DNA of 50,167 bases from NCBI GenBank assembly GCA_022822085.1, contig JAJECK010000027.1, forward strand, positions 1-50,167, in the 5' to 3' direction. How positions within the stretch are numbered: position 1 is the stretch's first letter; the number at the start of each line of letters is the position of its first letter. Origin of the DNA: Candidatus Poribacteria bacterium. Lineage in GTDB: Bacteria; Poribacteria; WGA-4E; WGA-3G. A model generated the notes under the pieces. It saw only the letters and a program-made list of their open reading frames with translations. It did no database searches and had not been told where the DNA came from. A program made the translations under genes and the position numbers. Positions 26,341 to 33,478 of this stretch are shown here, one piece after another.

Positions 26341-28503
26341 ATGAAAGTCAAACATTTTTTATTGATGTTACTGATTGGGTTTGGGATCCTTTTCTGTGTA
26401 ATCTTTCTAATTAAAAACCTAATTCAGCAAGTTAACGAAAGACAACGAACTTACGACAAATTTTTCTCAAATAATGATAATCCTGTTCCACATATACCCC
26501 GTAAGGTGGAGATACCAATTGAAATTCGACAGAAATTCGCTGCTGTTCCTGAAAAGCCCGTTCTCATCGCAGAGATCGCACAAGGTGATAGAATGGAGTC
26601 AGTCAAATTTTCTCCATCAAATCCTAATTTAGTAGTGAGTATTGGTAGCGATAAAAACTTTAAGAGTAAAGTCAAATTGTGGAATATTGACAAGCCGACT
26701 ACACCCTTAGCAGAATTCAGTGGAAATACAGCTTCATTCTCTCCTGATGGCAAAATACTTGCAATTTCTGATTTAGATTTAGATGATATTATGGCTCGTG
26801 TTAAATTATGGAATATCGCAGACATATCATTGATCAGCTCTTTACGTGTTTCTGCTTTTGCATCAGCTTACTCACCAAATGGAAATCACATAATAGTTGA
26901 AACTTTTGGTTTAGAATTATGGGATGTAAGTAATCCAACAAATCCTGTAGAAGCATTCAAGTTGAAGACTAAAAACTTTCAAGAGGATCATACATTTTCT
27001 ATAGATGGAAAACTAATGGCAACAGTAGAATCAATAACTGACATCGTTAATATCTGGGAGGTCAATGGGAATCATGTCAACAAGAAGAACTCAATTAATG
27101 TAATTGACGAAGAAGTTGGATGGATTGAGGCAATGCAGTTTTTACCTGATCCGAAGAATCCCATCCTTGCAATTGCAGATAACGATGAAGATATAAGATT
27201 ATATTATCCACCTGATTGGCAAAATTATAACACAATTCATGCTGGAAATGTCTATGATATTGCTTTTACTCCAGATGGAAAGACCATTATTAGTGGAGGT
27301 ACCAATGAGATCGAATTTTGGGCTGTGGAGAATGGAAACCGAATTACCTCAATAGAAGGATATTCCAGCTGGGTAAAGTGTGTTGATGTATCTGCTGATG
27401 GTAAGTATGTCGCTGCCGGTGGTAATGATGGTGTGATTCGTATCTGGGATATAACACACTTTTTACCTACAAGACAAAGTGTTATTCCAAATGTCGTAGT
27501 CCCGATTTACTTCTTACCCACCAACCGTCTACCTCAGACCGACATACCAGAGGAAATAGATAAAATCTTGAGAGATGTTCAAACATATTTTGCAGATGAA
27601 ATGGAACGACATGGCTATGGAAGAAAATCATTTGATTATGCAAAAAATAGTGACGGTTCTGCGAAGGTATATCTAATTGAAGGTAAAACAACTGATGAAT
27701 ACTATAATGTATTTTCAAATTCAAGGGTGAGGAAAGAAATTAGACAGCATTTTGATTCGTTTCACAATTTGTATTTCATCGTTGTGGACATAAGTGATGA
27801 AATTAAACCAAAAAGAAATATACCTACTCCTACTGAATTAGAACACATTAAATCTAAAATACAAGATCTTGAATTTAGTATAGGAAATATTGAGTTAACA
27901 CATAAGGAGGAGGAGATAATCCTAGAAACTTCACTCAGCAGTTACTCAAATTCTACTTTTGTTTCTAAATTTGCACAATCATTCGGTTTAAACCGTGATT
28001 ACAGGAACCCATCTTATCTGATGTCAAACAGTGCCCAGTCTAAACATTTATCCAATAGTAGTGCCGCGTGGCTAAACAAATGTAAGTTCTTTAATATCGA
28101 GAATAAATTTTTTAATGAACAAACTATAATTGAGGAACTTCCACGATCCAAAGAAAAAGCGAGATTTGAAGTAGAGGATGCTGATGGAATATATCAGGTT
28201 CGGTTATTAGTGACACCATCCAATGAAAACCCTCCACCAAGTTTTCAATGGAAGAGTGATCCTGTTCAAAACAAATCGGTTTGGGAAAAGCAATTTATGG
28301 GAAGATATGAAGTTTTACACGACTTCATGTTATTGAATGGCGAAAAGAAGGTGACGGTGGAATTGAATTATCCAAAATTTACGGAAGATATGGTTGAAAT
28401 ACATGTGTTGGATGGACTTGGAAACAGAGTCTATAAATACTTAGATCTAAATGGCAAAAGAGGAAATTCGATTGGATACTTACTACGTCGTATTTTTGAC
28501 TAA
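26341..28503 (+). CDS. Membrane-anchored WD40 protein with degenerate metzincin-like domain
   Basis: A 720-residue protein. Residues 5-28 are a membrane anchor. Residues about 70-380 carry WD40-type repeats (SFSPDGKILAISD, AFTPDGKTIISGG, DVSADGKYVAAGG with KLWNI, ELWDV, RIWDI strands), a single beta-propeller. Residues about 385-575 (from PIYFLPTNRLPQ) look like a zinc metalloprotease domain in which the HExxHxxGxxH site is replaced by VSKFAQSFGLNRD (541-553); the later Met-turn-like YLMS and the AAWLNKCKFFN helix remain. A C-terminal Ig-like beta domain follows. The domain is probably non-catalytic and may bind peptides. AAAGGAT precedes the start; the gene is 58 nt after the PBP gene. Confidence 0.82.
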   Translation: MKVKHFLLMLLIGFGILFCVIFLIKNLIQQVNERQRTYDKFFSNNDNPVPHIPRKVEIPIEIRQKFAAVPEKPVLIAEIAQGDRMESVKFSPSNPNLVVSIGSDKNFKSKVKLWNIDKPTTPLAEFSGNTASFSPDGKILAISDLDLDDIMARVKLWNIADISLISSLRVSAFASAYSPNGNHIIVETFGLELWDVSNPTNPVEAFKLKTKNFQEDHTFSIDGKLMATVESITDIVNIWEVNGNHVNKKNSINVIDEEVGWIEAMQFLPDPKNPILAIADNDEDIRLYYPPDWQNYNTIHAGNVYDIAFTPDGKTIISGGTNEIEFWAVENGNRITSIEGYSSWVKCVDVSADGKYVAAGGNDGVIRIWDITHFLPTRQSVIPNVVVPIYFLPTNRLPQTDIPEEIDKILRDVQTYFADEMERHGYGRKSFDYAKNSDGSAKVYLIEGKTTDEYYNVFSNSRVRKEIRQHFDSFHNLYFIVVDISDEIKPKRNIPTPTELEHIKSKIQDLEFSIGNIELTHKEEEIILETSLSSYSNSTFVSKFAQSFGLNRDYRNPSYLMSNSAQSKHLSNSSAAWLNKCKFFNIENKFFNEQTIIEELPRSKEKARFEVEDADGIYQVRLLVTPSNENPPPSFQWKSDPVQNKSVWEKQFMGRYEVLHDFMLLNGEKKVTVELNYPKFTEDMVEIHVLDGLGNRVYKYLDLNGKRGNSIGYLLRRIFD

Positions 28504-28766: not shown

Positions 28767-29192
28767 ATGTCAAGTAATGAAAATGATTATGTATCATTAG
28801 TTAGAATACCGCGAAAATGGTTCAATGTATTTGTTGGAATTTTTTTAACACTTATCCTCACTAATACTTTTGTTGAAATAATAACTGATTGGAAATGGGA
28901 ATTACTTGGTGATACAATATTAACACAAATGGCAGTGTTAATGACACTTATAGTTGGTTGGTTTTTCATAATATCACATATATGGGAGTTCATCATGTTA
29001 GGTTATGCAAGAATCTTTAGAGATAAAGTATTTGCAGAAGGCGAAGCTAAAGGCGAAGCTAAGGGTGAAGCTAAACATCACCGTAAGGTACTTGAATGGA
29101 ATCATAGAAGAATACAAGCTGAAAAGGAAGGTAAGGAATTCACTGAACCTATACCTGAACCAACACAGATTAAAGAATCCGAAAAGTTATGA
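28767..29192 (+). CDS. Small two-helix membrane protein with GEAK repeats
   Basis: A 141-residue protein that I cannot assign to a named family. Two hydrophobic helices (about 19-40 and 52-76) are followed by a charged cytoplasmic tail. Three tandem copies of Gly-Glu-Ala-Lys (about residues 93-104) are encoded by a 12-nt DNA repeat (GGCGAAGCTAAA and variants, 29041-29075), likely prone to slippage. The tail is Lys/Glu/Pro-rich. No Shine-Dalgarno is visible. Function unknown; the reading frame is supported by clean membrane helices and a strong hairpin right after the stop. Confidence 0.7.
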   Translation: MSSNENDYVSLVRIPRKWFNVFVGIFLTLILTNTFVEIITDWKWELLGDTILTQMAVLMTLIVGWFFIISHIWEFIMLGYARIFRDKVFAEGEAKGEAKGEAKHHRKVLEWNHRRIQAEKEGKEFTEPIPEPTQIKESEKL

Positions 29193-31471: not shown

Positions 31472-31552
31472 TGCCAACAACCTTTCTACATTGCAAATCT
31501 ACCATCCATAAAAAGAAAGAATAAAAACTAATACTTCCTGGAGAACTACACA

Positions 31553-33478
31553 ATGAAAAGGACTGTATTTCTGATATTCACTATTATGTTAGTAATTTAT
31601 TGGTTCATTCTGCTGGGTTTCACGCAATTAAGTAACCTACCTTTACCAGAGAATGCTGTGATGCGTCTCGGCAATGGATGGAGTACTTCAATAGATTATG
31701 CTTCTGATGGGAAACACATTGCCGTAGGAGGAAATAATGGTATTTGGATTCATGATGTTCAATCAGGTGAAGTTCTCAAGCTGTTAACAGACTATCAGAG
31801 TGATGTCTGGAGTGTTCGCTATAGTCCTGACGCAAGAATTTTGGCATGTGGTTGTTCTGACTCCACGGTGCAGCTTTGGGATATTGAGATAGGTGAACTG
31901 ATTAACAGACTCGTTGGGCATTCTGGGATTGTCTATAGTATCGCTTTCAGTCCTGATGGTATGACACTTGTAAGTGGAGCAACCGATGGCATTGTCCAGT
32001 TGTGGGATTTGATCACAGGAAAACAACTCAGTCTGTATATTGGGCATACTGACAAGATTAATAGCGTGACGTTCAGTCAGGATGGAAAGTTGGTTGCAAG
32101 TGGAAGTGATGACGGTACCGTTCGCGTATGGTCAATACAAACAGAAGTATCAAGTTCAAATAACAATCTAATTTGCTTCACGAGTGCACCTGTCAATAGT
32201 GTAATGTTCAGTCCAGATGCAAAGACAGTCGCAAGTGGTGGAAATGATATGAACATTGTCCTATGGGATACTAAAACAGGTAAATCTATCAGAACCTTTT
32301 CCGGGCACAGTGATTGGGTTCGTAGCATTGCCTTTAGTCCGGATGGAAAGTTACTCGCAAGCTGCAGTGATGACACAACTATACGACTGTGGAACGTAAA
32401 AAGAGGAGAACAACTACGGCTGCTTAAGGGACATACATCAAGGGTTGAGAACGTAGTTTTCAGTCCAAATGGGAAAACACTTGCAAGTGAGGGGTTAGAT
32501 GGAACGATTCGTCTATGGGATGTAGATTCAGGGAAACACCTTCGTATTTTCACCGAGTACCCGGATGTTATTTATAGTGTAACTTTCAACTCCGATGGTA
32601 ACGTATTGGCAAGTCGTGGTAAGGACAACACAATACGCCTGTGGGATTCAGGAACAGGTGAACAACTTCACAGAATTCCTCTGGCTTCAGATGAGGTGAA
32701 TTCATTCATAACTGGTCTAACCAATATTTCATTCAGTCCGGATGGAGATATATTGACAACTGGAAGAGGTAACGATACTGTTTTGATAACAGATTTTATG
32801 TCAGATAAAAACATCCCTTTAGATTCTAATAGAGACAATAGCATACGAACAATTTCAGGTCATATAGATTTGGTCAGATGTGTGGCATTCAACCCCGATG
32901 GAGATGTCCTTGCTACTGGGAGTGCTGATGGCACTATCAGAATATGGGATATACATTCAAGGCAAGAACTTCGGATGCTTGGCGCACATATACATTGGGT
33001 CAATTGTGTTGCATTTAGTCCGGATGGAAAAATACTTGCGTCAGGAAGCCTTGATAATACAGTCCGACTTTGGGATCCAAAAACAGGGGTACAACTTCAA
33101 ATCCTTGAAGGTCATACGAGTTCTGTTAATAGTATTGCCTTTGATCCGGATGGTCGAATCCTTGCAAGTGGGAGTAGTGATAACACAATTCGTTTATGGC
33201 ATCCAGAGTTTGGCGAGCACCTACACACCTTTACAGGTCATGCTGGACGGGTGCACAGTGTAGCATTTAGCCAAGATGGACAAACACTCGCATCTGGATG
33301 TGATGATACGACCGTCTATCTATGGAAGATGTTCACAGATAATCCACCCACGATCCTTACTGGACATAGCAGTATAGTATATAGTGTGACCTTTAGTCCA
33401 AAAGGTAATATACTCGCGAGCGGTAGTCTTGATGGCACAATACTATTTTGGGATTTAACCGCTTTAGATAAAGAATGA
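31553..33478 (+). CDS. Exported double WD40 beta-propeller protein
   Basis: A 641-residue protein with an N-terminal signal peptide or anchor (TVFLIFTIMLVIYWFILLGF) and then WD40 repeats to the very end. I count about 14 blades ending in LWD, IWD, LWN or similar strands, one of them degenerate (around residues 390-420, VLITDFM). That fits two seven-bladed propellers in tandem. No enzymatic domain is attached. It should be an extracytoplasmic protein-protein scaffold. TGGAG is 11 nt upstream of the ATG. The repeats are highly alike (SPDGKxLASGSxDxTIRLWD), suggesting recent internal duplication. Confidence 0.9.
   Translation: MKRTVFLIFTIMLVIYWFILLGFTQLSNLPLPENAVMRLGNGWSTSIDYASDGKHIAVGGNNGIWIHDVQSGEVLKLLTDYQSDVWSVRYSPDARILACGCSDSTVQLWDIEIGELINRLVGHSGIVYSIAFSPDGMTLVSGATDGIVQLWDLITGKQLSLYIGHTDKINSVTFSQDGKLVASGSDDGTVRVWSIQTEVSSSNNNLICFTSAPVNSVMFSPDAKTVASGGNDMNIVLWDTKTGKSIRTFSGHSDWVRSIAFSPDGKLLASCSDDTTIRLWNVKRGEQLRLLKGHTSRVENVVFSPNGKTLASEGLDGTIRLWDVDSGKHLRIFTEYPDVIYSVTFNSDGNVLASRGKDNTIRLWDSGTGEQLHRIPLASDEVNSFITGLTNISFSPDGDILTTGRGNDTVLITDFMSDKNIPLDSNRDNSIRTISGHIDLVRCVAFNPDGDVLATGSADGTIRIWDIHSRQELRMLGAHIHWVNCVAFSPDGKILASGSLDNTVRLWDPKTGVQLQILEGHTSSVNSIAFDPDGRILASGSSDNTIRLWHPEFGEHLHTFTGHAGRVHSVAFSQDGQTLASGCDDTTVYLWKMFTDNPPTILTGHSSIVYSVTFSPKGNILASGSLDGTILFWDLTALDKE

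Follow-up and report, generated by a model that had tools for sequence, protein, structure and literature searches.

The O-glycopeptidase OgpA of Akkermansia muciniphila (PDB 6Z2D) is described as a protein with a signal peptide, a metzincin-type catalytic domain including a Met-turn, and a beta-sandwich domain (PMC7518263). According to the same description its catalytic residues are H205, E206, H209 and H215, and Y116, F166, K198, W199, N235 and Y236 serve glycan recognition (PMC7518263). Metzincins that have lost their catalytic residues are also known. In ADAM22, ADAM23 and UNC-71 the zinc ligands and the Glu are replaced and the Met-turn is typically kept (PMC11266112). ADAM-family pseudo-metzincins are transmembrane proteins, some of which serve complex assembly, and the pseudo-metzincins treated in the cited part of that review are animal proteins (PMC11266112). 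For bacteria, an inactivated family is named in NCBIfam (NF052323, T9SS-dependent M6-like inactivated metalloprotease). The NF052323 match obtained lies at the C-terminal end of one intact paralogue and is no evidence of kinship with the window protein. Poribacterial single-cell genomes are reported to be very rich in WD40 domains (PMC3909097), and the words protease and peptidase are absent from the main text of that paper. No report of pseudoproteases in Poribacteria was found in the literature searched, which leaves out most subscription papers. Pseudo-metzincins with a kept Met-turn (ADAMs) and OgpA are already known, and what is new here is a bacterial variant with an unusually legible history.

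The window analysed is the whole stretch of 50,167 nucleotides of contig JAJECK010000027.1 (Candidatus Poribacteria, assembly GCA_022822085.1). Its forward strand carries at 26341–28503 a gene for a membrane-anchored WD40–pseudo-metzincin of 720 amino acids; all features given in this paragraph lie on that strand. An N-terminal membrane anchor (residues 6–24, 26356–26412, mean hydropathy 3.15) without apparent cleavage site is followed by a WD40 beta-propeller (residues about 76–375, 26566–27465), which matches Pfam PF00400 with E 4.8e-18 as well as related propeller models. Residues about 385–610 (27493–28170) represent, by homology, an OgpA-like metzincin-type domain with its catalytic residues lost. 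The domain contains a charged insert of variable length (residues about 486–528, 27796–27924), which has no invariant residue among 16 proteins of clade A, as we call the window protein and its orthologues. Intact relatives possess a glycine- and cysteine-containing loop in its place. The former zinc site VSKFAQSFGLNRD (residues 541–553, 27961–27999) was located by alignment with intact relatives, and a Met-turn-like YLMS is kept at residues 559–562 (Met561; 28015–28026). The C-terminal region (residues 611–720, 28171–28500) is homologous to intact relatives across its length and is probably a beta-sandwich as in OgpA, with strands visible only in a low-confidence model. The first-pass annotation had described a propeller fused to a metalloprotease domain with an altered site at residues 541–553. 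Reading frame, coordinates and site were all found as claimed, and the two parts in one frame are borne out by the Pfam WD40 match and by the homology to OgpA and to intact relatives. The domain had been given as residues 385–575; its start stands but its end does not, the homologous region reaching from about 385 to 720.

We assign a probability of roughly 0.6 to the following account as a whole. An ancestor would have encoded an active protease upstream of coaD, and the copy at this locus would have lost its zinc ligands in the window genus. The dead copy would then have been duplicated to a new site, giving the window gene, and this duplicate would later have entered a sister genus. The product would be a periplasm-facing, anchored propeller whose dead OgpA-like domain acts by binding beside the propeller, as an adaptor or ligand-holder, and not by cutting. 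The lost ligands, the descent from proteins with an intact site, the constraint on the rest of the domain and the hydrophobic anchor are shown by the data below; the binding role is a proposal.

The domain alone (residues 385–720) gave no match above the cut-off in Pfam and NCBIfam, the best being PF12044 with E 0.035. Enzyme-derived heads on WD40 proteins in these genomes can escape both collections. Intact relatives match the reprolysin, matrixin and PF12044 models of Pfam. The nearest of them share 36% identity with the window domain over 320 aa (E 7e-74), their site reading AHELGHAFGLHHD, and an intact paralogue in the same genome shares 29% over 253 aa (E 1e-35). Judged by sequence, the homology of the window domain to intact metalloproteases is far beyond chance. 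OgpA was reached by phmmer with the single domain sequence (E 5.6e-5 over 68 residues), by a profile of dead orthologues only (E 5e-7) and, spanning the zinc motif, by a profile including intact relatives (E 5e-12); the alignment to OgpA is weak past the first 90 residues. The profile E-values and the intact relatives support the metalloprotease kinship proposed earlier and specify the kin as OgpA-like. An AlphaFold2 model computed from only four sequences, the window protein and three orthologues, reached a mean pLDDT of 38.8 and a pTM of 0.32; the metzincin fold attributed to the window domain rests on homology. The window protein thus resembles OgpA in the sequence of the N-terminal part of the domain. 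Unlike OgpA, it has all four catalytic residues replaced and bears the domain on a membrane-anchored WD40 propeller. With the ADAM pseudo-metzincins it shares the replaced ligands and Glu, the kept Met-turn Met and the membrane anchorage, whereas those are animal proteins with disintegrin domains, another architecture and an independent loss.

HExxHxxGxxH, the motif of the metzincin clan MA(M), is absent from the window domain. The aligned site reads S542-K543-F-A-Q546-S-F-G-L-N-R552-D. S542 stands for the first His (H1), K543 for the Glu, Q546 for the second His (H2) and R552 for the third ligand (H3), and G549, D553 and Met561 are unchanged. The annotated loss of both His, the Glu and the third ligand is therefore correct, none of the four being retained, and the FGL and Met-turn-like YLMS are indeed kept, as G549 and Met561 align with intact relatives. 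Among 18 aligned clade A rows none keeps H1, Glu or H3, and H2 is still His in three. The Gly, the Asp and the Met-turn Met are retained in 18 of 18, Met561 aligning with the Met of the intact relatives as far as sequence alone tells. A real HExxH elsewhere in the domain had been named as an observation that would speak against a dead protease. A pattern scan of the whole window protein (HE..H, H...H or E..H) found neither HExxH nor HxxxH, its only matches being ELEH, ELTH and EVLH at residues 499, 518 and 657, and HE..[HQN]..G does not occur in the aligned orthologues. On this alignment the window domain should be unable to bind a catalytic zinc.

The replacements in clade A are non-random, with Lys at the position of Lys543 and Arg at that of Arg552 in 15 of 18 rows each. 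Such constancy would be expected of a domain that is still catalytic by other chemistry, through a repositioned metal site or through these Lys and Arg residues. However, the scan gave no HExxH in any part of the protein, and inspection by eye of the invariant positions near the site revealed no other conserved His/Glu cluster; we consider continued catalysis highly improbable. As a speculation, Lys and Arg at the dead site could replace the charge of the zinc and hold the pocket folded.

The named relatives of the window gene belong to Candidatus Poribacteria assemblies. Its own genome yielded 20 matches, which were grouped by hand into 15 family genes. In twelve of these the three His and the Glu of HExxHxxxxxH are all present, eleven having the full HExxHxxGxxH and one Ser for Gly. 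Active-type paralogues, for which a family alignment had been suggested, are thus present. The other three are a short divergent copy, the clade A gene of the window itself and, on contig C64, a clade B paralogue. One intact copy (L086 7957–10269, G000:C25) is an OgpA-like metzincin with a signal-peptide-like start and subsequent internalin-like leucine-rich repeats, hence an enzyme–LRR fusion. Another (L087 3246–5861, G000:C64) is an intact WD40–metzincin whose C-terminal stretch is similar, just below the cut-off, to a type IX secretion sorting tail. Clade A, counted by hand from match tables, occurs in 20 of 84 genomes of the phylum, namely 15 of 18 of the window genus and 5 of 38 of one sister genus.

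A tree was calculated from a 61-row alignment with the motif columns left out; its rows are selected top matches and own-genome copies, a subset of all matches. Eight rows were dropped beforehand: the divergent own-genome copies L093 and L094 and the fragments L123, L124, L075, L076 and two from L125. Clade A and the dead clade B copies of the window genus form one clade (100/100), and five intact B copies from the sister genus lie next to it. A 51-row tree had the same topology. The alternative of a single clade of B copies from both genera, with A as an early lineage of its own, was rejected (p-AU 0.0003), with long-branch attraction not wholly excluded. The tree places the loss in the ancestor of the window gene and the dead paralogue upstream of coaD. 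In the window genus the clade B copies are part-lost, with H1 Arg and H3 Asn in 5 of 5 and with Glu and H2 remaining in 3 of 5, and in the sister genus clade B is intact (5 of 5). In clade C, the neighbour of clade B at the coaD locus, eight dead rows are sister to 11 intact rows (99/96); H1 is Tyr in six of the eight, and an insert follows the motif. On this tree clade C is a second, independent ligand loss, and the minimum number of changes between the intact and the dead state is two. A Trp five residues before H1 is found in intact B and C copies and is missing from clade A.

Clades B and C share one gene row, which ends with coaD (a Pfam cytidylyltransferase-like gene, identified as coaD by how its sequence begins) and has a TonB-dependent receptor gene facing it; macB- and lpxI-type genes, assigned by Pfam, precede the row in the window genus. 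The loci were picked as query matches, so that the following counts are no census: at least one intact copy is present at 13 of 13 loci examined in the sister genus, and at 0 of 5 in the window genus. Dead subunits pair with active ones in other peptidase pairs. The main rival to our account is that the dead domain likewise pairs with, chaperones or inhibits intact WD40–metzincins or secreted metzincins of the same cell. Five sister-genus genomes (G030, G066, G078, G073, G025) indeed combine a dead C-type copy with an intact B-type and/or C-type copy in one row, and the window genome holds its 12 intact paralogues. Yet the five window-genus genomes examined have no intact copy at the coaD locus, and clade A genes are solitary, their surroundings varying between genomes. 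The case for pairing with intact proteases is stronger in clade C than in clade A; overall we judge such pairing unlikely, though the strongest competitor. In G066 an extra clade C-like copy in two overlapping frames (L125 9224–11304, G066:C90) lies beside the full-length dead C.

Clade A sits outside the coaD locus. In the window and in G010 it is flanked by a class A penicillin-binding protein gene and uvrB, and in other genomes its neighbourhoods are different. A conserved operon partner for clade A was rejected, given these several differing contexts, and this counts against our account. A hydrophobic protein of 141 aa with a GEAKGEAKGEAK repeat and without Pfam match is encoded between the pseudo-metzincin gene and uvrB of the window (28767–29192, forward strand); at the corresponding place in G010 the ORF list contains no frame of at least 90 aa. 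Four sister-genus clade A rows are nested within the window-genus rows, and the window-genus rows as one clade were rejected by a topology test. Both genes flanking clade A are common to G030, G061 and G075, and the sole readable flank of the copy in G025, which meets a contig end on its other side, matches them, as would be expected after one arrival. Apparently, the dead clade A copy reached the sister genus once.

Pseudo-metallopeptidases, a class defined by function and not by phylogeny, descend from an enzyme with an intact site, have lost the catalytic residues, are kept by selection and have a non-catalytic role. For the window domain such descent and loss are shown by the trees and the AU test. 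The selective constraint was measured as dN/dS (NG86, domain only) in 20 hand-chosen, mostly near pairs. For the dead domain it was 0.26–0.52 in all nine clade A pairs (median about 0.32), 0.10–0.15 in three clade B pairs and 0.36–0.47 in two clade C pairs; for intact relatives it was 0.11–0.24 (six pairs). The dead domain is under purifying selection, and A and C are less constrained than intact copies. Intact paralogues, loss in all 18 aligned orthologous rows and dN/dS below 1 agree with the pseudoprotease reading of the annotation.

The same values bear on a slow decay, in which the propeller alone works and the dead domain is tolerated baggage heading for deletion. Since dN/dS in clade A exceeds that of intact relatives, constraint is relaxed there, which also counts against our account. 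Furthermore, genes with only anchor and propeller adjoin the B and C copies. In 6 of 6 queries these propellers were nearest to C-type propellers when compared with eight other WD40 proteins (in one example 192 bits vs 75 for the best control). From this similarity we infer that these genes lost the whole peptidase domain, the apparent end state. Against decay, however, dN/dS is below 0.6 in 14 of 14 dead pairs and lowest in clade B, and 16 of the 20 genomes with clade A carry the gene at full length. Of the shorter copies, that in G025 ends at a contig end, those in G017 and G073 are split across contigs, and the G017 match has a TAA. The clade A copy of G012 (L068 8429–10600, G012:C67) shows one in-frame stop where the propeller ends and before the dead domain starts; this reflects a broken gene, a split gene or an assembly error and counts against our account. 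Across 16 clade A proteins, conservation of the first 100 residues of the domain equals or exceeds that of the propeller, and that of its C-terminal part is lower. We therefore rate decay as quite improbable, below pairing with intact proteases. Apart from the short Met-turn stretch 554–565, the best-conserved part of the domain is 385–485. The old catalytic cleft as a specially conserved binding site was rejected: residues 546–565 rank 111 of 316 windows, an average conservation that makes a role of the former cleft less likely.

The annotation had placed the domain on the outer face of the membrane. Clades A, B and C have one N-terminal hydrophobic segment with basic residues ahead and no evident cleavage site, and signal-peptide-like starts with Ala-Gln after them were noted in 9 of the 11 intact own-genome paralogues of the tree set (all by eye). 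The C-terminus of the window protein is predicted to be out, a topology derived from charge and paralogues. Because of the apparently uncleaved anchor and the starts of the paralogues, the domain probably lies on the periplasmic side of the inner membrane, in support of the earlier placement.

A dead domain that has been duplicated, has spread from one genus to another and is maintained by selection probably binds instead of cuts, and it is from this that we infer the adaptor role in our account. A broader version appears doubtful to us: the propeller would be constant and the protease head disposable, going through an active, a dead and a deleted state in at least two independent instances at one locus; the dead form would have been favoured by selection as an independent module that binds or inhibits the cell's OgpA-like proteases or host glycoproteins, and would have spread between genera. 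In this sponge-symbiont lineage the same domain is found intact, half lost, wholly lost and, apparently, deleted; one gene row has undergone two independent losses, and a dead copy has moved from one genus to another while remaining under selection. Natural proteins separated by known steps thus make it possible to test directly why a dead protease is kept.

The genome of the window is very rich in WD40 proteins (150 candidates scored of 1714). A second one of 648 aa is encoded after uvrB in the window (31532–33475, forward strand), and its WD40 repeats are among the best-scoring of the genome.
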